From Citricoccus muralis (GTDB lineage: Bacteria; Actinomycetota; Actinomycetes; Actinomycetales; Micrococcaceae): a stretch of DNA of 64,000 nucleotides. The stretch covers positions 1,426,001-1,490,000 of the forward strand of contig NZ_CP121252.1 in assembly GCF_029637705.1 (NCBI RefSeq), written 5' to 3'. This document shows, one piece after another, positions 1,289 to 28,532 of this stretch (its first letter is position 1; each line of letters begins with the position of its first letter). The notes beneath the pieces are model-generated. The model saw only the letters and a list, made by a program, of their open reading frames with translations, was not told the DNA's origin and did not search any database. A program made the translations under genes and the position numbers.

Positions 1289-1292
1289 TCTC

Positions 1293-4369: not shown

Positions 4370-4462
4370 TGATCGATGGAAAGCAGGCTGCTTTCGCGGT
4401 TTGCTCTGACGTATCAACGACTCGCAACCGACTGTGTCCACAGCAACTCAAGGAACGAATCT

Positions 4463-12103: not shown

Positions 12104-12495
12104 TTGCCAGTGAAATACACAGACGAACTCAAGGCTCGTGCCGTCGGGCTCGTCATCTATGCCCAGTCCGACCCGGACACCGTGAATGGAGCGATCACCC
12201 TCGTCGCGAACGAACTCCGGCTGAGCAAAGAGACCCTGCGAGTCTGGGTCCGCAAACACAAAGAATCGGGAAGGCGACACCGACTGAGTCCGTGGATTTG
12301 GAAGCGGAGAATCGTCGACTCCGGGCTGAGTTGGCTGAAGCGAAGCGGGCCAACGAGATGTTGAAGAGAGCATCGGCTTTCTTCGCGGCGGAGCTCGACC
12401 GTCCATCGAAGTGATCGTCGCCTTCATCGACGACAATCGCGACGAGTTCGGAGTCGAACCAATCGTGCGCGCCCTGAAAGGGACTCCTGCACGGA
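12104..12495 (+). pseudogene. second IS3-family OrfA/OrfB relic, truncated by an insertion
   Basis: LPVKYTDELKARAVGLV (TTG at 12104, GAAGGAG just upstream) is an IS3-type OrfA with a helix-turn-helix (ELRLSKETLRVWVRKHKES). The frame then shifts, and VDLEAENRRLRAELAEAKRA continues the zipper and tail in the next frame. OrfB starts at about 12411 (MIVAFIDDNRDEFGVEPI) and is cut at 12495, where the inverted-repeat end of the next IS3 element begins. It is inactive and older than the element that truncates it. Confidence 0.72.
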
Positions 12496-12528
12496 TGGGA
12501 CTGCTGAAGGTCTGGTTGACTGTGGGGT

Positions 12529-13342
12529 TTATGCCGCCAGGTCGACGGCTTTGTGGTGAACCAGTTCGTATTCAACCGGGGTCAGTTTACCCAAACGCCG
12601 TTGACGACGCTTCCGGTGATAGGTGCGCTCGACCCAATGCACGATCGCCTTCCGTAACTGCGCTCGAGACTCCCATCGGCTCCGATCGAGGACGTTCTTC
12701 TGCAAAACTGCGAAGAACGATTCCATCGCCGCGATATCACCAGCAGCACCGACTCGACCCATTGACCCGACGAGCTCATAGCGGCGTAGAGCTTGCTGGA
12801 ATTTCCGAGAACGAAATTGCGACCCGCGGTCCGAATGAACCACACAGCCGGCCACCGCACGCTGCCCGCCACGACGGGCCACCGCACACCCCCTTGGTCA
12901 GGAGTGTTGCAACGATGGCTAGAACCCAAGGGGTGGGATGCTCGGTGATATCGGTCAGCCACAATTCATAGATGGTCGTGGCGGTGAAATCGCGTTCAAC
13001 GAGGTCATCACACACCTGCGGACCAGGGGCTTTGCCGTGTTTCCGGGCTCGTTTGATCGTGTGAGAGAACAGCTTCTGCTCAGAACACCATCGCCACACA
13101 CGACGCTCAGACACCCCGTAGCCGACCGCTACGAGTTCGTCGGCGATGAACCGGTGACCAAACTCAGGATCATCCACGCGGATGCCATAGCAGGCATTGA
13201 TCAAGAGCGCCTCCTCCAGATCCCGGTCAGAGATAGGTTTCGCGCACCACTTGTAGAAGCCTTGCTTCGTAAAACCCAGTACCCGACAGGTCACTGCCAC
13301 CGGTACACCGGTGGCAGCAAGGTCACGGTCCAGCGGGTACAT
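12529..13342 (-). pseudogene. IS3-family OrfB (DDE integrase), internally deleted
   Basis: Read leftwards, the gene opens MYPLDRDLAATGVPVAVTCRVLGFTK and reaches WLTDITEH, which carries the first catalytic Asp. The frame then breaks near 12880-12900. It resumes in another frame with VVHSDRGSQFRSRKF (second Asp), AAMESFFAVLQKNV (Glu) and ends HRKRRQRRLGKLTPVEYE. The roughly 40 residues normally between the first two catalytic segments are missing, so a deletion plus frameshift inactivated it. Its OrfA partner lies at 16027-16318 beyond the inserted IS110. Confidence 0.78.
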
Positions 13343-13353
13343 CTGTAATGGGT

Positions 13354-13620
13354 ATTGGCCAGCCTGTGGCCGGCTGAGATGCTGAGTTCAGTCTCAGTGC
13401 GTGACCCCGGGTATTTCCGACCCTCATGAGGCGTTCAAGGGGTGTCTTGAAAATGACGTGTCCGCACTGGGCTGAGCTCGGCATCTGCGCGCAGATGCCT
13501 TGATTAGAAGCCTGTCCGACCCCCGAGGAAACAGTGGTTGTGACTCATTACAGATGTGGACTCTGAGCGACCCCACGAGCCGGGCTGACCTTATCCGCTC
13601 TATGCCCTTGGAGGATGATT
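13354..13620 (+). ncRNA. candidate IS110 bridge RNA region (left-end non-coding segment)
   Basis: This 265-base leader of the IS110 element has no open reading frame I can support. It contains hairpins: CTGAGA/TCTCAG at 13374-13397 and a perfect 9-bp stem GGCATCTGC/GCAGATGCC at 13480-13499. In the IS110 group the left end is known to encode a structured guide (bridge) RNA that pairs with target and donor DNA. The assignment rests on position, length and hairpins only; the pairing loops were not identified. Confidence 0.35.
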
Positions 13621-14433
13621 ATGGTTTCCGTCGTTGAAGCTTTCGACTACGTCGTCGGTGTCGACACCCATGCACGGACCCACACCTACTGTCTAATCCA
13701 GACTCGCACCGGCGCGGTCATCGATAGCGCTCAGTTTCCCGCCTCAAAGCCCGGTAACGAACGGGCGATCAGCTGGATCCAAAGGCGCGGGAACAACAGC
13801 AGCATACTGGCAGCAGTCGAAGGCACCGCTTCCTACGGTGCAGGCATCACTGCCTCCCTACGCAGAGCCTCTATCGAAGTCGCCGAGGTCCGCCCAGGAC
13901 CTAAACGAGAACATGCCCATGCCGGAAAATCGGACACGATCGACGCCGAATCTGCTGCACGGCGCGTTCTGGGCATCAATGTCGAATCCCTTGCCCAGCC
14001 CCGTGCTTCCGGCGATCGAGCAACCCTGCGTGTGCTTCTGGCCGCCCGGTCATTGATCGATCAGCAGCGCACAGCTAACCGCAACGCACTCACCGCCTTG
14101 CTGCGCAGCTTCGAATTAGGCATTGATGTTCGTCGGCCAGCCAAAGACGAACAGATCTCGGTGATCGCCAAGTGGCGAATAAGCCAAGATCCTGGCATCG
14201 GGCCTCTACGACGAGAAGCGAAGCGGCTGGCAAAGACTGTCCTCGAACAGACGTATTTGCTGGAGAAGAACCACGAAGAACTCGCCCGTCTCACCGAGCA
14301 ATTGGCTCCTGGACTCCAAGAGATCCAAGGGGTCGGCCCAGTCACCGGAGCGATTCTCATCACTGGGCTTACCCTGAATTAGTGGACATCTGAGCAAGGT
14401 GGCGGCTGTGGCTGTTACCAGGAAGGTGTCACG

Positions 14434-14751
14434 ATGAGAACCATGACGAGTAAACGCCGGAGCTTTACCCCGGAATTCAAAAGAGAAGCCGCTCGATTGG
14501 TGATCGATACCGATCGCAGCATCCGAGCTGTCGCCGAAGAGATCGGCGTTGGAGAACAGTCACTTGGCCGGTGGGTGAAGATCGAGCGCGAGTCTCGCCA
14601 GCCAACGAAACGACGCACCGTCGAGGAGCTTGAAGCTGAGAACGCGAGGCTAACGAAGGAACTCTACGAGGCCAGAAAGGACAATGAGTTCCTGGGAAAA
14701 GCCGCGAGCTTCTTCGCGCAGAAGCGTCAGGACCGGAACGGTTTGAACTGA
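14434..14751 (+). CDS. IS3-family transposase OrfA
   Basis: A 105-residue protein with an N-terminal helix-turn-helix (RSFTPEFKREAARLV and AEEIGVGEQSLGRWV) and a leucine-zipper-like helix (VEELEAENARLTKELYEARK) ending in FLGKAASFFAQK, the standard OrfA layout. It binds the element ends and is normally also made as a frameshift fusion with OrfB. Its TGA shares one base with the OrfB ATG. No defect is visible. Confidence 0.88.
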   Translation: MRTMTSKRRSFTPEFKREAARLVIDTDRSIRAVAEEIGVGEQSLGRWVKIERESRQPTKRRTVEELEAENARLTKELYEARKDNEFLGKAASFFAQKRQDRNGLN

Positions 14752-15656
14752 TGCACGTGGAGAAGCACAATCACCAAATCAAGCGCATGGCGCGATTATT
14801 AGGAGTCTCCGCCTCGGGCTATTACGCCTGGGTCGGTCGCGAAGGTCGTCCTCCCGGGCCGCGTGCGGCACGTCAACGACAGATCGACGCGAAGGTTCGC
14901 GACGTTCATGCCGAGTCTGGTCACGTGTATGGAGCGCCTCGGATCAGTGCTCAACTCGGCCGAGAAGGGATCAACGTCAATCGGAAAACGGTGGCTGCGT
15001 CGATGCGTCGTCAGGGGTTGGAAGGGATCAGCCCACGAATGTTCTCCCCGGTGACCACGATCGCTGGAGTACGCCCGCATCGCATTCCAGATCGGGTGAA
15101 GCGCACCTGGGATCAAGGCGAACTGGACAAGGTCTGGATCAGTGATGTGACGTATCTACGTACCGGGGAAGGATGGCTGTATCTGTGCCTGGTCACCGAT
15201 GCCCATAGCCGGCGCGTGCTGGGCTGGTCGATGTCGAGGGTGCAGAACTCCGAGCTGATTGAATCCGCGCTGCGAAGAGCGTGCTTGGTCCGGCAGAATC
15301 ACAAGCCTGATGGCCTGGTATTTCACGCGGATCGAGGGGCCCAGTACACCAGTGAAGACACGTACAAAGTCTGTTGGGATTTGGGCTTGGCTCAGTCAGT
15401 CGGCCGGACCGGGGTTTGCTTCGATAATGCGATGGCAGAGAGCGTGTTCTCCAAATTGAAAACCGAGTTCTATGACCGTCGTGTCTGGGCTACCCGGGCT
15501 GAAGCTCGTGCTGGGGTCGTTCATTGGATTGAGCAGGTTTACAACCGTCGGCGACTGCATTCGGCCCTCGGGATGCTCCCGCCGGTGGAATACGAACATT
15601 CCCTTAGGGAACAGCAGTCAGCCGGTGAGATAGAAAGACTTCAGGCAACGGCCTGA
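14751..15656 (+). CDS. IS3-family transposase OrfB (DDE integrase)
   Basis: A 301-residue integrase. An N-terminal HTH-21-like region (residues about 40-95, HVYGAPRISAQLGREGI) is followed by the rve catalytic core with the DDE triad in KVWISDVTYL (Asp), VFHADRGAQY (Asp) and AMAESVFSKLK (Glu), and the typical C-terminal VYNRRRLHSALGMLPPVEYE. Full length, no stops or frameshifts. Fragments of related copies at both edges of the island (11295-11590 and 20935-21152) retain only the C-terminal part. It could supply transposition function to the local element. Confidence 0.9.
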   Translation: MHVEKHNHQIKRMARLLGVSASGYYAWVGREGRPPGPRAARQRQIDAKVRDVHAESGHVYGAPRISAQLGREGINVNRKTVAASMRRQGLEGISPRMFSPVTTIAGVRPHRIPDRVKRTWDQGELDKVWISDVTYLRTGEGWLYLCLVTDAHSRRVLGWSMSRVQNSELIESALRRACLVRQNHKPDGLVFHADRGAQYTSEDTYKVCWDLGLAQSVGRTGVCFDNAMAESVFSKLKTEFYDRRVWATRAEARAGVVHWIEQVYNRRRLHSALGMLPPVEYEHSLREQQSAGEIERLQATA

Positions 15657-16026
15657 TGAACTAAGAACATGTCCACAACTTGCGGGCAAGCCCATCACCG
15701 CTTACTCCCACCACGGGCGGATCCGTTCAGAAGCTGCCTTCGCAGCACTTGGAGGCATCGCACCATTACCGGCCTCATCAGGAAACACCACCAGGCACCG
15801 ACTCTCACGATCCGGTGATCGACAGCTCAACCGCGCTATTGATGTCATCACCCGCACCCGGATCAGCTGCGACCCCACCACACGAGATTACGTGCTCAGA
15901 AGACAAAGCGAAGGGCTGAGCAAACGTGAAATCCGACGATGCCTGAAACGCTACATCTGCCGGTCCCTCTATCGAGAGCTGAAGACTCGCATGGCTTGAC
16001 AGAGGGCATAGAAGCGTCATTTTGGG

Positions 16027-16318
16027 TGGTGACCCCGAGCTTCAAATTCGCTTGCGAGAGATACGCGGCGGCCTCGCGGAGGATCTTGTTCTCCCGCTCG
16101 AGTTCGCGGATTCGCTTGATCGCTGCTGCTTGGGCCCGCGACCCCTCGTGATCCTTAGCCGGTTCGAGGCCGTGTTCGCGCAGGCGTGAGTCGCGAACCC
16201 AGGATTGGAGCGCTGATTTCGACACCCCCAGGTCGGCGCAGACCTGTTTTTGTGTCGTCACGTCGTTGATGAGCTCGAGTGCTGATTGTTTTAACTCATC
16301 GGTGTAGATCTTGGGCAT
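16027..16318 (-). pseudogene. IS3-family OrfA truncated by the IS110 insertion
   Basis: On the minus strand MPKIYTDELKQSALELINDV opens a helix-turn-helix (TQKQVCADLGVSKSALQSWV) followed by a zipper helix ending REAAAYLSQANLKL, the usual OrfA layout. The natural continuation into OrfB is lost because IS110 sequence begins near 16026; the open frame runs on into that element until about 15896. Its OrfB is at 12529-13342. Confidence 0.78.
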
Positions 16319-16437
16319 GACTTCAATCCTTCCTGGAATTTATCCAGTCGTGAAGTCAACCGAACCTTCAGCAGTCTCCAGACAAGACCTTATCAACTCC
16401 AACGAACAGGCGTAACCAAAGAAATCCAGGCCCGGAG

Positions 16438-16488
16438 GGGTCAATTTTCAGTTGTCGTTAGGGGGTCAATTTACACCCGTCGTTGACA
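16438..16488 (-). repeat. IS21-type terminal repeats, remnant of a further element
   Basis: Two adjacent units of about 25 bases each begin GGGGTCAATTT (16438 and 16463) and end with GTCGTT. Read on the minus strand the block starts TGTCAACGACGGG, resembling the multiply repeated tips of IS21-family elements. No matching transposase remains between here and the IS3 end at 16381, so it is a stub of a third IS21-like element. Nothing else is recognisable in 16382-16500. Confidence 0.5.
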
Positions 16489-16753
16489 TCTTCTCGAGGC
16501 CGGTGGCTTCAGACCCCAGCTACACCCTTAAATGCGAAGGGCCGCTTTACCAACGTCTCGTTGGGAACGCCTTCAGGATCCAGCGATATCTCGATATGAC
16601 CGCGACTCCTGGCGCATAGCGTTAGATGAAAGCGCTGGTCTGGGTACCTGGAAGCGTTGTTCTGGGTATGTGGTAGCACTGTGGTCTGCTGAGGAGTAGC
16701 GGCGTCGTCCGGCGCTGCTTTCTCTTCTAGATTCATGGAAGCAGGCCTTCATC

Positions 16754-18337
16754 GTGGTTGATTACAAGAAGATCATGTCTCTGTTGCTGGAGTCGCGGTC
16801 TTATCGAGATATCGCTGAGTCCTTAGGATGTTCTCAACGAGACGTCGCTAAAGCCCGTGCGGTGATCAAGGAGCACGGCCTCACAGGTGATCAAGTAGCT
16901 GTCATGACCGTAGAACGGGTAGAGGAACTCTTCCCCGATCGGCGCCGACGAGTTGCAGGTGAGTATCTAGCGCCGGAATTCGGCCCGGTCGTGGCATCGA
17001 TGCGTTCGAACCGTCACTTCACTTTGCTCCAGGGGTGGAGAACTTATCTCGGTGTGGCCTCCGAACTGCGGAAATACTCGTATTCTCAGTACTGCCACCT
17101 CTTCAGCGATTACGCGGCAAGAAACGATCTTGTAGCCACTTTGCACCATGAACCGGGGCGGGCGGTATTCATCGATTGGGCCGGTGACACCCTCCAGGTC
17201 TGCGACGCGGTCACCGGTGAAATCACCAAGGTCTACTTGTTCGTCGCGGTGTTGCCGTACTCGGGGTTGGTGTACTGCACAGGATGCACTGATATGCGTA
17301 TGAACGCGTGGTTGAGCGCTCACAAGGCAGCTTTCGAGTATTTCGGCGGGGTGCCCCAGATTGTGGTCCCTGATAACGCGCCCACTGCTACTCACCGCCC
17401 TACCAAAGGTGAGTCTGCCCGGGTCGTGAATCCGAAGTACCAGCAGTTAGCCGATCACTACGCAACGGCGATCGTGCCTGCCAGGGTGCGCAAGCCTCGA
17501 GACAAAGCCGCCGTAGAATCTGCCGTTCAGGTGATCAACAAGCGAGTCATCGGATATCTCTGCGAAGACGTCTTCACGACCGTGACCGAGCTCAACACCG
17601 CGATCGCTGTTCGGATGAGGGAAATCAATGAAGAGATCCGCCGGGCTGATGGGACCACCAGGGCCGAACGATTCATGGCAGAAGAGGCATCTGCTTTGGG
17701 AGGCTTGCCTGTTGAGGGGTTTGAAGATGTTGAATACCGGCAGGTCAAAGTGGGACGGAATTATCATGTGACCTGCGATTATCAGCACTACTCAGTGCCT
17801 CACCGACTCGCAGGTCAATTGCTGCGAGCACGACTGACGGATCAACAGGTCAGTATCTTCGATGGCGATGCCATCGTTGCAGAGCACCGACGAAAACACG
17901 GCCGCCGGGGCCAGTACTCCACTGATTCCGCGCATGTACCCCTCCAGCACCAAGACGTCGCTGGCTTGTGGTCTCGTGATTGGTTTATCCGTCGGGCGGC
18001 CGCGTTTGGGCCGGCCACCGTGGAGATCATCACCGCGGTCTTAGACCGCCATAAGATCGAGGCTCAGGGGTATCTGGAGTGCCAGAACATTCTCGAGTCC
18101 CTGGGCAAGCGCGATAAGCAACGCCTCGAGGCTGCGTGCACGCAGTTAGCCAACCTGGGTGGGTATGCCAGCTATTCCGGACTCAAGCGACTCATGGCTG
18201 CCATTGATTCTGATACGAAAACATCTCGGCCACACAGGCCAGCAGCCGCCACCATCAAGCCCCAGCCGGCCGTCGATACCCTCGATCCAGCACAGATCTA
18301 CGTGCGTGGAGCTGACTACTACCAGCAGGGACGGTGA
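16754..18337 (+). CDS. istA: IS21-family transposase IstA
   Basis: A 527-residue transposase starting at GTG. An N-terminal helix-turn-helix (SYRDIAESLGCSQRDVAKARAVI) is followed by a DDE core: FIDWAGDTLQV (Asp), VVPDNAPTATHRP (Asp) and RDKAAVESAVQVINKRVI (Glu). It ends with a C-terminal beta-rich region that begins near VEYRQVKVGRNYHVTCDYQHYSVPHRLAG. Length is normal for IstA, which assembles on the element ends with IstB. The istB gene overlaps its stop codon. The start is supported by the homologous GTG in the neighbouring relic. Confidence 0.92.
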   Translation: MVDYKKIMSLLLESRSYRDIAESLGCSQRDVAKARAVIKEHGLTGDQVAVMTVERVEELFPDRRRRVAGEYLAPEFGPVVASMRSNRHFTLLQGWRTYLGVASELRKYSYSQYCHLFSDYAARNDLVATLHHEPGRAVFIDWAGDTLQVCDAVTGEITKVYLFVAVLPYSGLVYCTGCTDMRMNAWLSAHKAAFEYFGGVPQIVVPDNAPTATHRPTKGESARVVNPKYQQLADHYATAIVPARVRKPRDKAAVESAVQVINKRVIGYLCEDVFTTVTELNTAIAVRMREINEEIRRADGTTRAERFMAEEASALGGLPVEGFEDVEYRQVKVGRNYHVTCDYQHYSVPHRLAGQLLRARLTDQQVSIFDGDAIVAEHRRKHGRRGQYSTDSAHVPLQHQDVAGLWSRDWFIRRAAAFGPATVEIITAVLDRHKIEAQGYLECQNILESLGKRDKQRLEAACTQLANLGGYASYSGLKRLMAAIDSDTKTSRPHRPAAATIKPQPAVDTLDPAQIYVRGADYYQQGR

Positions 18338-19152
18338 ACAGCGCCATGACCACGACACCGGCGAGCCCGGCCTTGATGAATTCAGTGTTCACTACCGAGG
18401 ACAAAGAGAAGTTTCGTACCTTACGGATCACTCACTTGGCTGCGAAGTTCGAAGAACTCATCATCGATGAGAGCAACGACCACCTGACCCCGGAGCAAAT
18501 ATTCCTGGCGGCCGTTGATGACGCTTTAGACCAGCGAAGAGTGAAGAACATTCAGAAACTGCTCCTGGCTGCTCAGCTACCGATCATGCGGGCCTCGATC
18601 GCGGAGATCCATTATCAAGAAGGACGGAACATTACCCCAGCCAGGATGGCCCGCTACGCCGCACATGACTGGGCCAATGAGACCGCTAACCTGTTGATCA
18701 CCTCGCCCACAGGAGGAGGAAAGACCTATATTGCCTGCGCGATTGCCGTAGCGGCATGTCACAACGAGCATAAAGTCTTCTACACCCGCATGGACGAGCT
18801 CGCTCGTCGTCTCGTCATCGCTCGAGGCGATGGCATCGCTCATCAGGCCTTGTTGAACCGGCTATCTGATGCGGATCTACTCATCATCGACGATTTCCTG
18901 ACCGTCGGTATTGACCCTGAAGCCGCGAACGATCTTTTCGCGATACTGGCAAACCGAGAACACCGGGCAGCCACCATGATCGCTTCTCAAACCGGGCCCG
19001 CGTACTGGGCTTCAGCTCTCCCTGACAGAATCGCTGCGGATAGTATCGTCAATCGACTGGCGAATAATGCCCGCACGATAAACCTTGGCGACATTGATAT
19101 GCGGCGCCACCAAGGTGAACAGACACGAGCGGCCCCTGGCTACTGGGAGTAG
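18334..19152 (+). CDS. istB: IS21-family ATP-binding helper protein IstB
   Basis: A 272-residue DnaC/IstB-type AAA+ ATPase. Walker A is SPTGGGKTYIACAIA, Walker B is DADLLIIDDFLTVG, and a sensor region follows (TMIASQTGPAYWASALP). It regulates IstA target capture. The GTG at 18334 overlaps the istA TGA in a GTGA arrangement; an in-frame ATG at 18346 is an alternative. Intact. Confidence 0.9.
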   Translation: MNSAMTTTPASPALMNSVFTTEDKEKFRTLRITHLAAKFEELIIDESNDHLTPEQIFLAAVDDALDQRRVKNIQKLLLAAQLPIMRASIAEIHYQEGRNITPARMARYAAHDWANETANLLITSPTGGGKTYIACAIAVAACHNEHKVFYTRMDELARRLVIARGDGIAHQALLNRLSDADLLIIDDFLTVGIDPEAANDLFAILANREHRAATMIASQTGPAYWASALPDRIAADSIVNRLANNARTINLGDIDMRRHQGEQTRAAPGYWE

Positions 19153-19168
19153 AAAAACTCGAGAAACC

Positions 19169-19207
19169 GACGACCGGGAAGCACCATAGAGGTGCTTCCC
19201 GGTCGTC
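19169..19207 (+). terminator. hairpin after istB
   Basis: A perfect 17-bp stem (GACGACCGGGAAGCACC and its complement) with a 5-base loop, 17 bases after the istB stop. No T tract follows. It probably ends istAB transcription or blocks read-through between the element and its surroundings. Confidence 0.6.
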
Positions 19208-19460
19208 AGAACTCCGCTACCACTTACCCAGACCAGCGCTTTCATCTAAGGCTATGCGCCAACTCCAGCAATAGGGACATGATCTTCTTGTAATCAGCCA
19301 CGATGAAGGCCTGCTTCCATGAGTCTCGAAGAGAAAGCAGCGCCGGACGACGCTACTCCTCCTCAGCAGACCACAGTGTTACCTACTACCCAGACCCGCG
19401 CTTCCAGGTACCCCGACCAGCGCTTCCGACTCAAGCTATTCGCCAGCACTCAGCATAGAG

Positions 19461-20918
19461 GGCTCTTCGGACATCCGGTGGGGGTAGGGCTCGCCGGGTG
19501 ATGGTTGGCGTGTAGGGGTCGAGGTCCCCGAGGATCAGAAGCGCTAACTCTCTGATCTACCCCGAGGACCTCGACATGCTTCACCCTACTTCGGGGTGCG
19601 CTTCGGCGCGCTCTGCTTGCTGTCCGTGTGCCCGCTGTGACCTGCTGGTCGGCCTTCCCGGTGTTCATGTCGAGCACGTCGACCGTCGCGACGGGCTGCT
19701 GGTCGTGACGGTCTCGAGCCCCGCCGCGCCTGCCGGGTGCCCGTCGTGCGGTGTCGTCGCGACAGGTCGAGGGCGCCGCCGGCGGGTGCTGCATGACGTG
19801 CCCGGAGCGACCCGGGTGCGGATCGTGTGGCGGCAGCGGGTCTGGCGATGCGACGACGAGGGCTGTCTGCGGAAGACGTTCACGGAGCAGCTGCCGTCGC
19901 TGGTTGCCCGGCGCGGGTCGATCACGACGCGCGCTATCGGCTGGGCGATCGGGCAGCTGCGTCGCGAGCATGCCACGATCGCGGGCCTGGCCCGGCAGCT
20001 CGGGACGTCGTGGAAGACGGTGTGGCGGGCCGTCGAACCCGAACTCGTCAAGCTGGCCGTCGATGAGACCCGGTTCGAGAACGTCACCACGCTCGGCGTC
20101 GACGAGCACATCTGGCACCACGTCGACCCCCGCAAGCGCGGCCCGAAGGAGTTGACCGGGATGGTCGACCTCACCCGCGACGAGCACGGAAAGACGCGGG
20201 CCCGGCTGCTGGATCTCGTCCCGGGCCGATCGGGGAAGGCGTATGCCTCCTGGCTCGGTGATCGTGGCGACGCGTTCCGGAAGAACGTGCGAGTGGCAGC
20301 TCTCGATCCGTTCGCGGGATACAAGACTGCGATCGACGACAAGCTGCAGGACGCCACCGCGGTGCTCGACGCGTTCCACGTCGTCAAGCTCGGCACCGCC
20401 GCCGTTGACGAGGTCCGCCGGCGCGTCCAGCAAGACACTCTCGGGCATCGCGGCCGTAAGGGCGACCCGCTCTACGGGATCCAGACCATCCTCCGCGCCG
20501 GCGCGGAGAACCTCACCGAGAAACAGCGAGCACGGCTCACCGCCGCGATCGAGGCCGACCCCGCGCACGACGAGGTGTTCGTCGCGTGGCAGTGCGCGCA
20601 GCAACTTCGCTCCGCCTACCACCAGAAGGACCTCGCCGCCGGGCGGCGGATCGCCGAGCAGGTCGTCGAGACGTTCCACACCTGCCCGATCCCCGAGATC
20701 GCCCGCCTCGGCCGCACCCTCCGCCGCTGGCGGGACGCGTTCGTGGCCTACTTCACCACCGGCCGCGCGAACAACGGCGGCACCGAGGCCGTGAACGGGA
20801 TCATCGAGCTCCACCGCCGCCTCGCGAGAGGATTCCGCAACCGCGACAACTACCGGCTCCGAATGCTCCTCGCCGCTGGCGGACTCATCCCCTGACCCCA
20901 CCGGATGTCCGAAGAGCC
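19461..20918 (+). mobile_element. ISL3-family insertion sequence, copy 1
   Basis: A 1458-base element with terminal inverted repeats beginning GGCTCTTCGGACATCCGGTG. It is flanked by the 8-base direct duplication GCATAGAG (19453-19460 and 20919-20926), the size expected for ISL3. Markedly richer in G+C than its surroundings. The transposase is intact and identical in sequence to that of copy 2, which points to very recent transposition. Confidence 0.93.
19576..20895 (+). CDS. ISL3-family transposase (copy 1)
   Basis: A 439-residue transposase. A Cys-rich N-terminal zinc-binding region (CPSCGVVATG and WRCDDEGCLRKTF) and a helix-turn-helix (IAGLARQLGTSWKTVWRAV) precede the DDE_Tnp_ISL3 core, whose acidic residues include the Asp of TLGVDEHIWHH, ALDPFAGYKTAI and LDAFHVVKLG. 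The C-terminal NGGTEAVNGIIELHRRLARGFRN supplies the conserved Glu. Full length. The long minus-strand frame opposite it is a G+C artefact. Confidence 0.93.
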   Translation: MLHPTSGCASARSACCPCARCDLLVGLPGVHVEHVDRRDGLLVVTVSSPAAPAGCPSCGVVATGRGRRRRVLHDVPGATRVRIVWRQRVWRCDDEGCLRKTFTEQLPSLVARRGSITTRAIGWAIGQLRREHATIAGLARQLGTSWKTVWRAVEPELVKLAVDETRFENVTTLGVDEHIWHHVDPRKRGPKELTGMVDLTRDEHGKTRARLLDLVPGRSGKAYASWLGDRGDAFRKNVRVAALDPFAGYKTAIDDKLQDATAVLDAFHVVKLGTAAVDEVRRRVQQDTLGHRGRKGDPLYGIQTILRAGAENLTEKQRARLTAAIEADPAHDEVFVAWQCAQQLRSAYHQKDLAAGRRIAEQVVETFHTCPIPEIARLGRTLRRWRDAFVAYFTTGRANNGGTEAVNGIIELHRRLARGFRNRDNYRLRMLLAAGGLIP

Positions 20919-20934
20919 GCATAGAGCCGCTCCC

Positions 20935-21152
20935 CGCATAGAAGCGGCACAGAACCCGGGACGGTTCACAGAGTCTGGCAGTGTTGGGCTTAGGCGATGA
21001 GGGACGCCGCAGGCTGGATCAAGGTGATCTATGACCGGCGGCGGTTGCACTGGGCATTGGAGAAGGTCCCGCCGGTCGATTTCGAGGAAAAGCTCCGGGC
21101 CGCGCAGATCGCGGGCCAGGTTCAGGAAGAAGCGCCTACGCAGGTCGCGTGA
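20935..21152 (+). pseudogene. IS3-family OrfB C-terminal relic (between the ISL3 copies)
   Basis: From an ATG at 20997 the frame reads MRDAAGWIKVIYDRRRLHWA then KVPPVDFEEKLRAAQIAG, the C-terminal tail of an IS3 integrase. Upstream, GCGGCACAGAACCCGGGACGG at 20950 onward matches the corresponding part of the relic at 11295-11590, which lies in the opposite orientation, so both derive from the same broken element. Homology continues past the stop to a GTGGGGAGGCT terminus near 21180. Inactive. The rest of 21153-21255 holds nothing I recognise. Confidence 0.7.
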
Positions 21153-21255
21153 ACTGGTTCATGCGTCCAGTACTTGTGGGGAGGCTCACGGCCCACAATT
21201 TAAACGCACGCTATGCGCCTGCATGGGGTGCAAATGATGTGGTGTTCATGCAACC

Positions 21256-22713
21256 GGCTCTTCGGACATCCGGTGGGGGTAGGGCTCGCCGGGTGATGGT
21301 TGGCGTGTAGGGGTCGAGGTCCCCGAGGATCAGAAGCGCTAACTCTCTGATCTACCCCGAGGACCTCGACATGCTTCACCCTACTTCGGGGTGCGCTTCG
21401 GCGCGCTCTGCTTGCTGTCCGTGTGCCCGCTGTGACCTGCTGGTCGGCCTTCCCGGTGTTCATGTCGAGCACGTCGACCGTCGCGACGGGCTGCTGGTCG
21501 TGACGGTCTCGAGCCCCGCCGCGCCTGCCGGGTGCCCGTCGTGCGGTGTCGTCGCGACAGGTCGAGGGCGCCGCCGGCGGGTGCTGCATGACGTGCCCGG
21601 AGCGACCCGGGTGCGGATCGTGTGGCGGCAGCGGGTCTGGCGATGCGACGACGAGGGCTGTCTGCGGAAGACGTTCACGGAGCAGCTGCCGTCGCTGGTT
21701 GCCCGGCGCGGGTCGATCACGACGCGCGCTATCGGCTGGGCGATCGGGCAGCTGCGTCGCGAGCATGCCACGATCGCGGGCCTGGCCCGGCAGCTCGGGA
21801 CGTCGTGGAAGACGGTGTGGCGGGCCGTCGAACCCGAACTCGTCAAGCTGGCCGTCGATGAGACCCGGTTCGAGAACGTCACCACGCTCGGCGTCGACGA
21901 GCACATCTGGCACCACGTCGACCCCCGCAAGCGCGGCCCGAAGGAGTTGACCGGGATGGTCGACCTCACCCGCGACGAGCACGGAAAGACGCGGGCCCGG
22001 CTGCTGGATCTCGTCCCGGGCCGATCGGGGAAGGCGTATGCCTCCTGGCTCGGTGATCGTGGCGACGCGTTCCGGAAGAACGTGCGAGTGGCAGCTCTCG
22101 ATCCGTTCGCGGGATACAAGACTGCGATCGACGACAAGCTGCAGGACGCCACCGCGGTGCTCGACGCGTTCCACGTCGTCAAGCTCGGCACCGCCGCCGT
22201 TGACGAGGTCCGCCGGCGCGTCCAGCAAGACACTCTCGGGCATCGCGGCCGTAAGGGCGACCCGCTCTACGGGATCCAGACCATCCTCCGCGCCGGCGCG
22301 GAGAACCTCACCGAGAAACAGCGAGCACGGCTCACCGCCGCGATCGAGGCCGACCCCGCGCACGACGAGGTGTTCGTCGCGTGGCAGTGCGCGCAGCAAC
22401 TTCGCTCCGCCTACCACCAGAAGGACCTCGCCGCCGGGCGGCGGATCGCCGAGCAGGTCGTCGAGACGTTCCACACCTGCCCGATCCCCGAGATCGCCCG
22501 CCTCGGCCGCACCCTCCGCCGCTGGCGGGACGCGTTCGTGGCCTACTTCACCACCGGCCGCGCGAACAACGGCGGCACCGAGGCCGTGAACGGGATCATC
22601 GAGCTCCACCGCCGCCTCGCGAGAGGATTCCGCAACCGCGACAACTACCGGCTCCGAATGCTCCTCGCCGCTGGCGGACTCATCCCCTGACCCCACCGGA
22701 TGTCCGAAGAGCC
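21256..22713 (+). mobile_element. ISL3-family insertion sequence, copy 2
   Basis: A 1458-base element with the same ends and same orientation as copy 1. It has its own 8-base target duplication ATGCAACC (21248-21255 and 22714-22721). Independent duplications show two separate insertions rather than a tandem duplication. The copies are offset by exactly 1795 bases, so recombination between them would delete that interval. Confidence 0.93.
21371..22690 (+). CDS. ISL3-family transposase (copy 2)
   Basis: A 439-residue protein with the same amino-acid sequence as the copy-1 transposase, including the zinc-binding N-terminus and the ISL3 catalytic core. Intact. Its gene begins 115 bases inside the left inverted repeat. 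The 202 bases between this element and the next gene (22714-22915) are A+T-rich and hold no feature I can support beyond the target duplication. Confidence 0.93.
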   Translation: MLHPTSGCASARSACCPCARCDLLVGLPGVHVEHVDRRDGLLVVTVSSPAAPAGCPSCGVVATGRGRRRRVLHDVPGATRVRIVWRQRVWRCDDEGCLRKTFTEQLPSLVARRGSITTRAIGWAIGQLRREHATIAGLARQLGTSWKTVWRAVEPELVKLAVDETRFENVTTLGVDEHIWHHVDPRKRGPKELTGMVDLTRDEHGKTRARLLDLVPGRSGKAYASWLGDRGDAFRKNVRVAALDPFAGYKTAIDDKLQDATAVLDAFHVVKLGTAAVDEVRRRVQQDTLGHRGRKGDPLYGIQTILRAGAENLTEKQRARLTAAIEADPAHDEVFVAWQCAQQLRSAYHQKDLAAGRRIAEQVVETFHTCPIPEIARLGRTLRRWRDAFVAYFTTGRANNGGTEAVNGIIELHRRLARGFRNRDNYRLRMLLAAGGLIP

Positions 22714-22915: not shown

Positions 22916-25126
22916 CTAGTGACTCGTTGTTATCTTTAGGGAATGAGATCTCTCTTGGAAAAGTGGACGGTCCTGCGTGGCGTATCTCGCGAACGCGATT
23001 GCACTGTAAGTCCCTGGCTCGAGACTTCCTGGGAACGAATGAACTGGTGACGGTTTATACCAGGACTCTGAAACCCTCTCATCGTCCCGCATCAAATAAA
23101 CCGCAAAATGCATCTCCGCCTCACGTGAATGGATCGGACGACAGTCCACGATGACGCAATTGTTTTTGTAGCAAATGGTCGGTTGCATGATAAATGTATC
23201 TAAAATGCTGGGGATCGGAGCCGACGCTTTCACGCCGGTATTGACGAGGCATTGTGATTCTGACCTCCATAAAGACCTTGAAGGGGAGGCCGACGAGCTG
23301 ACTCTAAGCTCATCATAAGAACCTTCGAGAAGACCTCGATTCAAGAGTAAAGGCGTCACAGCGGATAGCATTTTTACCGTGGTGTTATGAAGGTCGTTTC
23401 TTCCGCGCATTATGCTGTGAAGCACCAAATCGTGCTGGTTTCTAAGATGCGCGGCTGCTCGTGGGTCACTGAAATTTTCGATCTCCACGAAGCCTTCTTT
23501 TAGGTAATTTATTAGCAACTGAGTTTCGTTATTACGCAGTATTTGATTGCTGTCACGGCCTGAACGGTGGACGTTCGTAATTGGGTCTGTCTTTACCTTG
23601 ACCTGGTGGTCGTAGGAGTAAATCCAACTATTGTCCGTTTTGGAAACCTTCTGCGCGCCAGGTGATGCGAGGCGCTGCGTCCACGTGTCATCTTCAAAGG
23701 CGTAGTCGAGAAGGTGTGGAGCAGTGAGGTTAAATATGTCTTTTACCAGTTTACCATTGGCTTTTTCTTGGAACGAAATAAGTTGACCTGCGCGAAGAAA
23801 AAATGGATTTGATAGAATTTGAAGAGTGTGATCGTTTTTGAGTAGTTCGCGGTGATAGATGCTAAAATGTGCACGATTGCGCGTGCGAAAATAGTACTCA
23901 TTTAAGCGTTGCTCGAGGGAGGGCGCATCTGTCTCTCCAATTGAATTCGCTAGATATCTGACTGCAAAGTCTGTGAATCCTGCGGAGACTTTACCTGTAT
24001 CAATGTAGGTTGACGCAATCCAGTGGCATACACTTGATGGCTGAGATTCACCACCGTTGAATACTTTGCGGAAATGTCGACTCATGTTTGAGCCACCACG
24101 GGTAGATCGAAGTAGTTCCCCGCCGCCCCCTCTGACGGTCAGTGTCGCCGACGGGTATGGTTCTGCGCTGGCATTGGATTCGAACTGATAGTAGAGGTTC
24201 GAACTTATTGCTTGATGGGATGCCAAGGAGTGGGCAAGGCTGCTTGGTCCGGGTTGCGAGGCTGGGGGGATCCACCACTGCATTCCCATCGCTTCCCGAA
24301 TGGCATTAGATATCTGTATGTCACGTTTAATTATGTCTATAGTCTTATTATTTGACCATGTGCGGGGGTCTTCGGTGAATATCTGGAAGTCGTGGTGAAC
24401 GCCTGCCGCGTAGAGCAGGGCTAGGGCGAGCCGAGAATCCACACCCCCCGAGAGGGTTAGGCGTTTCTCAAGTCCTTCTTGAGTGCTGACATGTTGTAGT
24501 AACTGTTGCGCGAATTCGATGCCTTTCTGAATGGCGTGAGTGTAGTCCTGGATATCATGTGTCCCTCCAACAACTGATCGGTCTACGATTCGTGCGGTGT
24601 TTGGAGTTATCTCGATGGCCTCATCTGGTTCCAGTAAAGAAATTTGAGTAACCATTGTGCTGGAGGATATGGGATTTCTAAATGTTGGAACATTGGATAT
24701 TATTGTGGTGACGTAATTCTCTAGATCAAGGTCGAGGCGTCGAGCCCTGCTGGTTAGTGCCTGTGAAACTGCATCGAAGGAATCTGAGAGCAATAGACCT
24801 TCGCCTGGAACGTGTGAGTAGTATGTAGCCTTATATGCGAATCGGTCCGCGAGGACGAGGAACTCATCGGATTCTTCATTGTTTTGAGCTACAACTGAGA
24901 CCCACTCTCCAAGGGAGTCACGTATTTCGCCCAAGTTGGTTGCGGAGTCCAGATTGTTGTCGCCAAATCGCCCATTGTTGGCATGCTGGGCGCCATAGGT
25001 GACGCCGCTGAACTCAACAATTGGTGACTGTGCTGGCCACTCTCTGCGTGCGGGCTGTCTGGTGAGAGCCGTTGCGTTGGAGGGGACAAGGAGGGCTACC
25101 GGAGGGGCGAGCTCAGATGAAGACAT
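22916..25126 (-). CDS. asparagine-synthetase-like protein lacking the glutaminase Cys
   Basis: A 736-residue protein. Residues about 40-190 resemble a degenerate class-II glutaminase domain (LADRFAYKATYYSHVPGEGLLLSD). There is no Cys before residue 367, so glutamine hydrolysis is not expected. The synthetase half has the ATP-pyrophosphatase loop SGGVDS (226-231) and GGGGELL near 335. Residues about 620-736 look like a beta-sandwich. AGGTAG precedes the ATG. Visibly A+T-richer than its neighbours, suggesting horizontal acquisition. It sits 85 bases after the exporter ATPase gene on the same strand. A role in amidating a uronic acid or otherwise modifying the polysaccharide is a guess from context; lasso-peptide cyclases share the fold, but no precursor or protease is nearby. 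Confidence 0.7.
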   Translation of the reverse strand: MSSSELAPPVALLVPSNATALTRQPARREWPAQSPIVEFSGVTYGAQHANNGRFGDNNLDSATNLGEIRDSLGEWVSVVAQNNEESDEFLVLADRFAYKATYYSHVPGEGLLLSDSFDAVSQALTSRARRLDLDLENYVTTIISNVPTFRNPISSSTMVTQISLLEPDEAIEITPNTARIVDRSVVGGTHDIQDYTHAIQKGIEFAQQLLQHVSTQEGLEKRLTLSGGVDSRLALALLYAAGVHHDFQIFTEDPRTWSNNKTIDIIKRDIQISNAIREAMGMQWWIPPASQPGPSSLAHSLASHQAISSNLYYQFESNASAEPYPSATLTVRGGGGELLRSTRGGSNMSRHFRKVFNGGESQPSSVCHWIASTYIDTGKVSAGFTDFAVRYLANSIGETDAPSLEQRLNEYYFRTRNRAHFSIYHRELLKNDHTLQILSNPFFLRAGQLISFQEKANGKLVKDIFNLTAPHLLDYAFEDDTWTQRLASPGAQKVSKTDNSWIYSYDHQVKVKTDPITNVHRSGRDSNQILRNNETQLLINYLKEGFVEIENFSDPRAAAHLRNQHDLVLHSIMRGRNDLHNTTVKMLSAVTPLLLNRGLLEGSYDELRVSSSASPSRSLWRSESQCLVNTGVKASAPIPSILDTFIMQPTICYKNNCVIVDCRPIHSREAEMHFAVYLMRDDERVSESWYKPSPVHSFPGSLEPGTYSAIAFARYATQDRPLFQERSHSLKITTSH

Positions 25127-25211: not shown

Positions 25212-26114
25212 CTATGACGTTTTTGTTCTACCAGCGATGGTTTGTACTCGCTCGTAGAAAGTCTGGTTATAGCGAGATTTCACTTTCAACGCCGTAGGTT
25301 CCCCATGTCTGCGGAGGGCGTTCATGAATTTGCTGTACTCGCTCATTATCTGTTGAGTTTCCCCATCGGCGACAATTTCACCTTTGTCGAGCCAGACTAC
25401 GCGCGTGCAGAGTTCTCGGATGGCCGGCGCTGAGTGATTAACGAGAAACCCGGTGCCTGAGCGAGCGATGAGCTGCTTCATGGCTTCATTGGAGCGCTGC
25501 CTGAAGGCGTCATCGCCGGTAGAGAGTGCTTCATCGATCATGAGGATGTCCGGATCTGCTGCGACCGATATGGCAAACCTGAGGCGTGCGTTCATTCCCG
25601 AAGAGTATGTTCGCATCGGCATCCTGATGGAGTTTCCTATGTCGGCCAGCTCGGTGACTCGCGGAATTCGCTCGTCAACTTCCGCGGGCGTCAGACCCAT
25701 GGCCAAGAGTCCGATTCGGATGTTGTCCACACCAGTGAGATTGGGCATCAGGGCGGCCTTCACGCCCATGAGTTGTGGGGTTGAAGTAGCAACAACCTCG
25801 CCGCTAGTGGGCGTTTCTACGCCGGCAAGGACTCGGAGTAGCGTGCTCTTTCCAGAACCGTTACGCCCAACGAGACCGATGAACTCACCTTTGCGGGCTG
25901 CGAGCGAGATCCCCTTCAGTGCCTGCACGACACCTTTTTCTCCACTGGAGCCGAAGAGTTTTCGGGACTTCTGTTCGTGGGCGATTCGTACGTTGTAGTC
26001 CAGTGAAACATCGGTGGCAAGTAAGGTGAGTTCACCTAGCTTCAGTGGCTTGTCATCGGTTGACGGTGTCTTTTCCGCTGGGGCCTGCTTTGGAGAGTTA
26101 CTTGTGCTGGTCAC
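25212..26114 (-). CDS. ABC-2 polysaccharide exporter, ATP-binding subunit (TagH/Wzt/RfbE type)
   Basis: A 300-residue ABC ATPase with Walker A GRNGSGKST, Q-loop region (TPQLMGVKAALMPNLT), signature YSSGMNARLRFA, Walker B ILMIDEALSTGD and the switch His in LVNHSAPAIREL. The pattern of MPNLTGVDNIRIG and the GD(D/A)AF segment after Walker B is typical of teichoic-acid and O-antigen exporters. The GTG start lies inside the end of the permease gene (17-base overlap), indicating translational coupling. There is no long C-terminal carbohydrate-binding domain, so chain-length control by that route is unlikely. It energises export of a lipid-linked polymer. Confidence 0.88.
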   Translation of the reverse strand: MTSTSNSPKQAPAEKTPSTDDKPLKLGELTLLATDVSLDYNVRIAHEQKSRKLFGSSGEKGVVQALKGISLAARKGEFIGLVGRNGSGKSTLLRVLAGVETPTSGEVVATSTPQLMGVKAALMPNLTGVDNIRIGLLAMGLTPAEVDERIPRVTELADIGNSIRMPMRTYSSGMNARLRFAISVAADPDILMIDEALSTGDDAFRQRSNEAMKQLIARSGTGFLVNHSAPAIRELCTRVVWLDKGEIVADGETQQIMSEYSKFMNALRRHGEPTALKVKSRYNQTFYERVQTIAGRTKTS

Positions 26115-27057
26115 GGCCGTAGGACTCCTCTCCGAGCCAGAAAACGAAGAATCCGATAATGAAAGTCACTCCGGCCCAGATGCTGAGCATGATCCAGTGC
26201 TCGGTTGCTGGCACGACTCCATCTATGAGGATTTCTCGGTACATGACAAGGAAGACATAGATCGGGTTCAGCTCAATGATGGCTTCCAGCGCGGGGTAGT
26301 TCTGCGTGACACGAGTGATAGGGAAGATCACGCCGGATCCGTACATCAAGAAACGTGTCACGAACTGCATGATGCGGCTGATGTCAGGTAGGTGCGTGCT
26401 CAGGCGGGCCAGGATCAGCATGAACCCGAAACTAAGTATCAACTGAAGAGCAAGAACGGCAGGGAACAAGAGCCATGACCATTCCGGCAACTCATGTGGC
26501 GGAATGATCATGATGATCATGAACATGACTGCGACTGCCAACATGCGCTGCATAGTGTCGTAGACGAGGTCAGCAACCGGCAACGCCATGCGGGGAAATT
26601 GGAACGCCCGTGTCAGGGCCAAAGAGGAGGTGATGGTGCGAGTACCTGCAGTGAGTGCGTAACTCGTGAATTGATACATGAACACGCCAATGATGACGTA
26701 CGCCACGTAGTTGCTCATTCCGCGATCGAAACGAAGTAACAGGCCGAAGATCATCCAATAGAAAACAGCGTCAAGTATTGGCCGCAGAACAAGCCAGACG
26801 GATCCGAGGCGACTGTCGTCGGTGCCAGTGATGACACGACTCCGTGACTGAAGCCAGATGAAGTGACGCCTTTGCCAGAGTTGCTTTAAATAAATGCCAA
26901 GTCGAGGGCGACCAGCCACCGGGTGAAGCTTTTCGAAGCCACCGTAATTATTGCGAACAGCGGTAATGAAGTCAGCTGTAGTAGCGGTCGGGGCATTCTC
27001 GCCAGCACCGCTCTTCGCCTGGTGCTGTGCCGAGAGGTCACGGTTCACCTCAGTCAT
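26098..27057 (-). CDS. ABC-2 polysaccharide exporter, permease subunit (TagG/Wzm type)
   Basis: A 319-residue membrane protein with a hydrophilic N-terminus of about 100 residues and six predicted membrane helices between about 105 and 310. The amphipathic YLKQLWQRRHFIWLQSRSRV segment just before the first helix and the final FWLGEESYGRDQHK tail are typical of this family. Together with the overlapping ATPase gene it forms the exporter expected for a teichuronic- or teichoic-acid-like polymer. The gene is divergent from wecB across a 311-base gap. Confidence 0.87.
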   Translation of the reverse strand: MTEVNRDLSAQHQAKSGAGENAPTATTADFITAVRNNYGGFEKLHPVAGRPRLGIYLKQLWQRRHFIWLQSRSRVITGTDDSRLGSVWLVLRPILDAVFYWMIFGLLLRFDRGMSNYVAYVIIGVFMYQFTSYALTAGTRTITSSLALTRAFQFPRMALPVADLVYDTMQRMLAVAVMFMIIMIIPPHELPEWSWLLFPAVLALQLILSFGFMLILARLSTHLPDISRIMQFVTRFLMYGSGVIFPITRVTQNYPALEAIIELNPIYVFLVMYREILIDGVVPATEHWIMLSIWAGVTFIIGFFVFWLGEESYGRDQHK

Positions 27058-27368
27058 TCAGCGACACCAATCTTTCAGAGCAGGCGGGCACATCGATGGA
27101 CTTCTCCATAAGAACCATAGTCTAGACCGCTTTGGTTGCTCGTCGCTTACTGCACGCGCGGTTCGGATCCATATCAGTGTCCATGCCGTTTCGAGGGGGT
27201 GGTCTCGCACAGTTGCTCCGTGGCCTGCGGATGCTCACCTAGGTGATACTTCAAGATTGTGGCGCGAATTCTCGGAGACCTCGTATGCCGGTCTAGAATG
27301 AGGCCGACCCATACATCCCGTCTGGCCGGTTGCGCATCGCGCCGATCGACCATGATTCAAGGAGTGCT
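27058..27368 (+). promoter_or_regulatory. divergent intergenic region between exporter and wecB
   Basis: These 311 bases separate the leftward exporter operon and rightward wecB. TAGAAT at 27293-27298 could be a -10 box for wecB with a leader of about 60 bases, though the -35 is weak. No open frame, repeat or RNA structure that I can support is present. Confidence 0.35.
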
Positions 27369-28532
27369 GTGAAGAAGATCATGCCCGTCTACGGGACCCG
27401 TCCGGAAGCGATCAAGGTTGCTCCGATCATCAAGGCCCTGCAGGACGCGGACGATTTTGATTGCGTCGTCACCGTCACGGGCCAGCACCGTGAAATGCTG
27501 GACCAGGTTAATGAGCTCTTCGGTATTGAGCCGGACCATGATCTCAACATCATCCAGCCGCGCCAGACTTTGAACATGGTGATGGCCAAGACCATTGATG
27601 GACTCGACGCCATCCTGGAACAGGAACAGCCCGACGCCGTTGTGGTCCAGGGCGACACCACGACGTCGACGGCCGGAGCCATCGCCGCCTTCAACCGGGG
27701 GATTCCGGTGGTCCACGTAGAGGCCGGGCTCCGTAGCTTCAACATCTTCTCGCCCTTCCCTGAAGAAGCCAACCGCAAGATGACATCGCAGATCTCCTCG
27801 CTGCATTTGGCCCCCACCTCGGTGTCCAAAGCAAACCTGCTACGCGAAGCGGTGAACGAGGATGACGTCTACGTTTCCGGTAATACCGTGATCGATGCAT
27901 TGCTCGACGTCGTCGACAAGAAGGTTCCGTTCGAAGACGAGGCCCTGCAGAACGTACAAAAAGCTGTTGAGGGTGGACAGAAGCTGGTGCTGGTGACCAC
28001 CCACCGTCGTGAGAACCAGGGTGACGCAATGCGCGGCGTGGGTCGTGCTCTGGCTCGCTTGTCGGAGACGCACCCGGACGTCCTGTTTGTTCTTCCCGCT
28101 CACAAGAATCCGGTGGTGCGCGAAGCGATCCTGCCGTTCCTCGAGGGCAAGACTAATGTGGTGGTGACCGAGCCGGTAGCTTACGGCCAGTTCACCCACC
28201 TGATCTCGCTGGCGAACGTGGTGCTGACCGACTCCGGTGGAGTTCAGGAGGAGGCTCCTGGCCTGGGCAAGCCCGTGCTGGTGATGCGCGAGAACACCGA
28301 GCGTCCCGAGGCTGTGACTGCGGGGACCGTGCGTTTGATCGGCACTGATGAGGAGCGGGTCTACAACGAAGTGACCGAGTTGCTGACTGACTCCGCTGCC
28401 TATGAGCGTATGTCTAACGCGGTGAACCCCTACGGTGATGGTAACGCCGCCCGCCGTACGCTCTCGGCCATTCGCGAACTGCTGGGCACCGGCAAGCGCG
28501 AAGCTGAGTTCGATGACGGGCTCGGCAACTGA
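27369..28532 (+). CDS. wecB: UDP-N-acetylglucosamine 2-epimerase (non-hydrolysing)
   Basis: A 387-residue GT-B-fold epimerase. It shows VYGTRPEAIKVAPII at the N-terminus, VTGQHREMLDQV with the conserved His, VVQGDTTS, HVEAGLRSF, TTHRREN and DSGGVQEEAPGLGKPVLVMRENTERPEA. It converts UDP-GlcNAc to UDP-ManNAc, the substrate of the wecC product at 4.5 kb. The GTG at 27369 was chosen because AAGGAG is four bases upstream and the product then begins at the family's usual point. A strong terminator follows. Confidence 0.93.
   Translation: MKKIMPVYGTRPEAIKVAPIIKALQDADDFDCVVTVTGQHREMLDQVNELFGIEPDHDLNIIQPRQTLNMVMAKTIDGLDAILEQEQPDAVVVQGDTTTSTAGAIAAFNRGIPVVHVEAGLRSFNIFSPFPEEANRKMTSQISSLHLAPTSVSKANLLREAVNEDDVYVSGNTVIDALLDVVDKKVPFEDEALQNVQKAVEGGQKLVLVTTHRRENQGDAMRGVGRALARLSETHPDVLFVLPAHKNPVVREAILPFLEGKTNVVVTEPVAYGQFTHLISLANVVLTDSGGVQEEAPGLGKPVLVMRENTERPEAVTAGTVRLIGTDEERVYNEVTELLTDSAAYERMSNAVNPYGDGNAARRTLSAIRELLGTGKREAEFDDGLGN

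Follow-up and report, generated by a model that had tools for sequence, protein, structure and literature searches.

How could a protein that resembles asparagine synthetase B (AsnB), and that lacks its glutaminase cysteine, serve a locus for a cell-wall polysaccharide? The question is raised by a gene of Citricoccus muralis that lies next to a polysaccharide exporter in a 64,000-nucleotide stretch of DNA, referred to here as the window.

The gene and its wall-glycan locus

The protein, of 736 amino acids, is encoded by an ORF with an ATG start (22916..25126, minus strand) that is corroborated by a homologue in Auritidibacter ignavus and by an AsnB-class fold. Its only cysteines are at residues 367, 626, 652, 657 and 662, and the original prediction was exact in placing none before residue 367. 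The PP-loop SGGVDS, which was also predicted to be retained, is present at residues 226-231 (24434..24451, minus strand) as S226-G-G-V-D230-S231, followed by R232. A second motif, GGGGE at residues 333-337 (24116..24130, minus strand), is by alignment the counterpart of GxGxDE, and the structure model places a C-terminal FN3/Ig-like beta domain at residues 643-736 (22919..23200, minus strand). A chance ORF is excluded because the one close homologue found, that of A. ignavus (Micrococcaceae), is 35% identical over residues 10-717. The protein is the sole match in its own one-contig 3.13-Mb genome, from which canonical AsnB is absent at E 1e-30. A plasmid search gave no match, and a defence-system search gave only a weak PADLOC match (E 0.03).

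Three genes succeed one another on the minus strand: a Wzm/TagG-type ABC permease (26098..27057; ABC2_membrane, 8.5e-10; galactan_ABC_perm at 52.3 bits, below its cutoff of 380), a Wzt/TagH-type ABC ATPase (25212..26114; ABC_tran, 7e-20; best NCBIfam model the teichoic-acid export ATPase, at 194.8 bits below its cutoff of 538) and the AsnB-like gene, which starts 85 nt after the end of the Wzt-type gene. Beyond the exporter genes lie wecB, for UDP-GlcNAc 2-epimerase (27330..28532, plus strand; TIGR00236, 459.8 bits, cutoff 210), and an SMC-like ORF. Across about 10 kb of insertion sequences, the plus strand carries a large multi-domain glycosyltransferase (6854..11134; domain search), a galE-type epimerase (5754..6746; TIGR01179, 336.2 bits, cutoff 262), wecC, for the UDP-ManNAc dehydrogenase that makes UDP-ManNAcA (4376..5707; NF008286, 564.6 bits, cutoff 459), a second glycosyltransferase with GT group 1 domains, whose start is uncertain and overlaps the next ORF (1086..4289; domain search), and a LytR-CpsA-Psr (LCP) glycopolymer transferase (131..1288; profile and domain searches). 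wecB and wecC both score above NCBI equivalog cutoffs, so the window encodes both of the steps that lead from UDP-GlcNAc to UDP-ManNAcA. The genome has a second wecC, 61% identical to that of the window and far from it.

The insertion-sequence region that splits the glycan locus (12411..22713, left edge approximate) was delimited from ORFs and repeats, with IS family names read from translations. It holds two ISL3-like copies (19461-20918 and 21256-22713) in direct orientation, with starts 1795 bp apart, identical transposase translations and 29-nt end repeats that are 93% complementary. About 200 bp separate the end of the second copy from the stop of the AsnB-like gene.

The gene was initially described as A+T-rich and horizontally acquired. 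The first description is accurate: its GC content of 0.495 and GC3 of 0.503 are the lowest among the 14 window genes measured. The window's remaining glycan genes, at 0.536-0.603, also lie below the flanking smc, MFS and ftsY genes (0.637-0.652; MFS and ftsY named from translations). A. ignavus has the homologue in the same kind of locus, composed of smc, wecB, the AsnB-like gene, wzm, wzt, a large glycosyltransferase, a heparinase-like gene, galE, wecC, a glycosyltransferase and LCP. There the gene sits between wzm and wecB with a GC content of 0.529, like that of its neighbours (0.511-0.572). This synteny and similar GC content led us to reject a solo gain of the gene, and the data give no support to horizontal acquisition as a recent event that concerned this gene alone. 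An older transfer may have occurred, given the patchy distribution: a single-sequence search found homologues in 2 of 59 relatives and 5 of 395 family genomes, the own genome counted. A scan of named-genome contigs found no relative with the single protein as query, and only A. ignavus with profile A2. The AsnB-like genes of the two species lie on opposite sides of wzm/wzt and on different strands, which indicates that the gene moved within the locus. No counterpart of the A. ignavus heparinase-like gene was found in window positions 1-30000; a distant homologue (27%) lies about 7.6 kb past the window end in the same genome.

Fold and active site

The window protein has no significant Pfam, NCBIfam or PDB sequence match (best NCBIfam model TIGR03104, E 0.05). 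Up to E 1 it is not matched by PF00733, TIGR01536, TIGR03108 or the lasso/macrolactam cyclase models NF033535 and NF033561. None of the 21 members of alignment A6 matches any Pfam model at 0.01; two farther relatives reach the PF00733 cutoff (L050, 35 bits; L055, 58 bits). The profile of these 21 members has beta-lactam synthetase as its best PDB sequence-profile match (E 1.1e-8), and hhalign to the canonical alignment gives E 6.6e-13 over residues 67-348.

An AlphaFold2 model of the window protein built on A6 has a pLDDT of 71.5 and a pTM of 0.64, with values mostly above 80 over residues 11-290 and lower values after; an earlier model from 5 sequences (pLDDT 49) was discarded. The best match among PDB structures is TsnB9 (7ylz; Z 15.3, 383 aligned residues, rmsd 5.1), followed by carbapenam synthetase (Z 14.8), AsnB (14.4) and beta-lactam synthetase (13.8). 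The AsnB-class match spans model residues 9-486 (7ylz, 1q15, 1ct9 and 1jgt; Z 13.7-15.3), and the model has the corresponding two domains, an Ntn-like domain and then a PP-loop synthetase domain. Foldseek gives the AsnB-class rows only modest TM-scores by query length (0.19-0.32), which makes the domain arrangement uncertain. The structure matches, the profile and hhalign together support the AsnB-like fold that had been proposed. The predicted C-terminal beta-sandwich is also seen in the model, with strands over residues 650-728 and a best Z of 10.1 for residues 643-736 against Ig/FN3 structures.

With the thresholds applied in the profile searches, 13 of 297 order-level genomes had a match, as did 136 of 394 class-level genomes (a count that includes ordinary AsnB) and 7 of 47 and 17 of 149 genomes in two others. 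The searches yielded 74 distinct proteins, 11 of them canonical or control AsnB-type proteins with SGGxDS[ST] loops and 63 not. Homologues that had lost the ATP site would have counted against the original prediction; 58 of the 63 keep [ST]GGxDSR, four have TGGRDTR and one has the altered SGGETAR. Five non-canonical matches without GGxDS (L044, L047, L048, L049 and L051) were left out of the residue counts that follow; L051, with SGGETAR, may be inactive. These counts compare 43 family rows (window included), taken from the 63, with 7 canonical rows. The aligned rows other than the window protein are 13-33% identical to it.

Residue roles are those of the AsnB and beta-lactam synthetase literature. 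The loop [ST]GGxDSR, with its Ser/Thr, Asp and Ser, is kept in 43/43 family rows. The glutaminase Cys2 is aligned in 0/43 (canonical 7/7) and the glutamine-site Arg49 in 1/43 (canonical 7/7), which bears out the predicted loss of the glutamine site. The window protein is one of a diverse set of actinobacterial proteins that carry [ST]GGxDSR loops and lack the glutaminase residues. On the metal side, residue E337 occupies the position of the canonical metal-binding Asp. That position has E in 36 rows, D in 1, G in 4, L in 1 and N in 1, so that the acid is missing in 6/43, and the canonical Glu after it is absent in 43/43. The canonical catalytic lysine, K520 of L025, has an aligned counterpart in 0/43 rows, in a region where the alignment is weak. 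In the same weakly aligned region, many rows keep Arg or Lys near the lysine position, and a Trp is conserved in the window protein, L002, L113, L114, L116 and L105.

The altered active site brings up the possibility that the protein has kept the fold and the nucleotide loop, makes no amide, and acts as an ATP-gated scaffold or regulator of polymerisation or export that binds glycan through its FN3-like domain. The lysine without a counterpart and the Glu absent throughout the 43 rows speak for such a role, as do the extra beta domain and the exporter gene 85 nt away. The retention of the PP-loop in every one of these very divergent rows speaks against it, and members adjacent to wecC (L022, 564 aa; L028, 596 aa) are too short to have the extra domain. 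We regard this explanation as unlikely, though deserving of attention.

Relatives and linkage to wecC

In a maximum-likelihood tree of the 43 family and 7 canonical rows, in which several rows have long branches and unsure placement, the window and A. ignavus proteins are joined with support 100/99. The next branches are L113/L114/L116 (99/91) and then L105 (99/95). This group sits inside 22 order-level rows (100/97), 13 of which are labelled wecC-linked; outside it, wecC-linked rows are found in another set (L106, L121 and L122) and in L080, a row that stands alone. The nearest relatives after A. ignavus (L113, L114, L116 and one in L126) are outside glycan loci, with matches to the protein panel described below in 0/4, and a gene read as dnaE adjoins the AsnB-like gene in both of the nearest-relative loci read. 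A candidate Rosetta-stone fusion in L126, a 1449-aa ORF, was rejected by inspection, its N-terminal half reading as an antisense extension. Similar long ORFs (among them L035, L037, L038, L042, L045, L063 and L069) were kept out of alignments A5 and A6 because they appear to be antisense extensions of the same kind.

Linkage was assessed in 34 order-level positive genomes, the window's included, with wecC called at E up to 1e-80. The 34 leave out G533, G664 and nine order-level genomes whose weak matches (E 2e-10 to 1e-16) were taken for ordinary AsnB. wecC is present in 20 of the 34 as against 53 of a 248-genome order sample that shares genomes with them (Fisher p 1.3e-5); counted by genus, its presence alone is not significant (11/22 vs 26/86, p 0.13). 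Among the 20 genomes with wecC, 15 (9 genera in 4 families) have it within 30 kb on the same contig, 3 on another contig and 2 far away. Random placement would give 15/20 with a probability of about 3e-23, and 9 of 11 genera with 5e-15; genomes of one genus, seven of g42 and four of g111, are not independent. In L086 and L079 the AsnB-like gene comes immediately after wecC, separated from it by 17 nt and 42 nt respectively, and both wecC genes are above the equivalog cutoff. As a matched control, canonical AsnB was located in 9 of the same 20 genomes, the query being L090, a canonical protein with good scores against several AsnB-type models. None of the 9 lies within 30 kb of wecC, the nearest being about 65 kb away.

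Close wecC is lacking in 14 of the 34 order-level and 18 of 19 class-level positives, and the wecC match of G133 is partial. With one close wecC among 19 positives outside the order, the link is confined to the order and does not extend to the whole set. A 14-protein panel applied to 47 family loci of about 20 kb gave at least one match in 27 and none in 20. Among 10 control loci from other families of the class, 2 had a panel match: L097, wecC-like (E 2e-53) and Wzt-like, and L098, Wzt-like. Together with wecB and wecC in the window, the 15/20 count upholds the original association of the protein with the exporter and with the polymer's uronic acid. The glycan link is strong, and the linkage counts (15/20 vs 0/9 in the control) indicate that the target carboxylate is probably that of ManNAcA.

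The idea that the protein cyclises a peptide or small molecule in a natural-product cluster, as lasso cyclases or beta-lactam synthetase do, is in our view highly improbable. The A6 profile match to beta-lactam synthetase and weak matches of L016, L034 and L121 to the macrolactam cyclase model NF033561 (29-35 bits vs a cutoff of 300) are in its favour; they are outweighed by the wall-glycan locus with LCP and exporter in both the window and A. ignavus, and by the physical linkage to wecC in 9 genera. Neighbouring peptide-biosynthesis genes, named in the original prediction as evidence to the contrary, were not recognised by eye in the loci read gene by gene. Nor was a stand-alone glutaminase gene recognised by eye in those loci. 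This absence, and that of the protein's own glutaminase residues, make quite unlikely a uronamide synthetase that resembles WbpS, the precedent for such an activity in the published excerpts cited below, and that is fed ammonia by a separate glutaminase or uses free ammonia.

Other neighbours recur. Heparinase II/III-like genes are found at L007:5048-6667, L011:4119-6809, L086:6203-7906, L132:1012-2721, L140:10973-12778 and L141:12683-14470. DUF6270 (PF19786) proteins with a GSCxSRD start are found at L012:672-1403, L141:10883-12658 and 14467-16278, and L009:4102-6069; some form part of a longer protein, and a hydrolase or acyltransferase fold would be our guess for them. L080 encodes three different AsnB-like proteins with SGGxDSR loops (1583-3460, 7250-8998 and 9038-10609) in about 9 kb of one glycan locus.

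Predicted chemistry and known systems

The AsnB-like genes lie near genes for an acidic wall sugar in many related bacteria, which makes it probable that the protein modifies that sugar. From the fold, the intact PP-loop, the missing glutaminase residues and the repeated linkage to UDP-ManNAcA synthesis, we propose a glutamine-independent AsnB-fold ligase that uses ATP to modify ManNAcA of a wall polysaccharide of the teichuronic type, a proposal that we consider evenly balanced between right and wrong. We infer the adenylation, the nucleophile, the product and the timing as follows. WecB and WecC would make UDP-ManNAcA. The AsnB-like protein would bind Mg-ATP and adenylate the C6 carboxylate, either on UDP-ManNAcA or on the growing chain. 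It would then transfer the acyl group to an amine, which may be ammonia or an amino compound, so that a uronamide or an amide-linked substituent results. Export through Wzm/Wzt would follow, with LCP then linking the chain to the wall; the FN3-like domain may serve to bind the glycan or a partner. Carboxylate activation with ammonia or another nucleophile, as first predicted, is plausible, and amide formation without glutamine would be the likeliest chemistry. The main doubts about this ligase come from the missing aligned lysine and from nearest relatives that are unlinked to glycan loci.

A wider proposal is more tentative, and we think it somewhat doubtful: that the Pfam-invisible actinobacterial AsnB branch with [ST]GGxDSR loops and no glutaminase site consists of glycan-tailoring ligases. 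These would attach an amino compound directly to the ManNAcA carboxylates in wall teichuronic acids, and their active site would have been rebuilt so as to work without the canonical lysine. The wall polysaccharides of Micrococcales set surface charge, metal binding and phage binding. If the proposals are right, a glutamine-free tailoring step would be added to these polymers, and an unannotated protein family would be tied to one sugar, ManNAcA, which makes its function chemically testable. A rebuilt AsnB active site would interest enzymologists.

Among known systems, beta-lactam synthetase (1jgt and others) and carbapenam synthetase (1q15, 1q19) share the two-domain AsnB fold with the window protein (Z 13.1-14.8) and likewise do not use glutamine. 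The window protein differs from them in its SGGxDSR loop, its extra C-terminal FN3-like domain and its setting in a wall-glycan locus rather than an antibiotic cluster; their catalytic Lys has no aligned counterpart in it, in a region of poor alignment. The hydroxyamidotransferase TsnB9, the top structural match at 10% identity, is tied within 1 Z unit with the next two matches, and it acts in a natural-product pathway, unlike the wall-glycan setting here. WbpS and WbqG are glutamine-dependent, and TupA has an ATP-grasp fold unrelated to AsnB.

According to the excerpts available, the AsnB-related WbpS is needed to turn N-acetyl uronic acids into uronamides (PMC7468200, PMC6025236), a precedent for the proposed ligase too. 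As far as these excerpts go, WbpS/WbqG (eps_aminotran_1, TIGR03108) and the window protein have in common a relation to AsnB and a link to N-acetyl uronic acid synthesis; the window protein differs in having no glutamine site and no TIGR03108 match. tupA of Bacillus halodurans is described, in an excerpt, as acting in the biosynthesis of teichuronopeptide, a wall polymer of poly-glutamate and polyglucuronic acid (PMC8153356). On that description it likewise serves a uronic-acid wall polymer, with a uronic acid other than ManNAcA. A literature search, which drew on partial texts, found no report of a cysteine-less AsnB-like protein in wall-glycan loci. ManNAcA itself is given in an excerpt as a component of the wall teichuronic acid of Micrococcus luteus (PMC3005890), a member of the same family as Auritidibacter. 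Judged by its glutamine site and by model cutoffs, the window protein would fall outside the asparagine synthetase B/class II glutamine amidotransferases, with which it shares the PP-loop; judged by its predicted structure, it belongs to the AsnB-fold superfamily in the wide sense.
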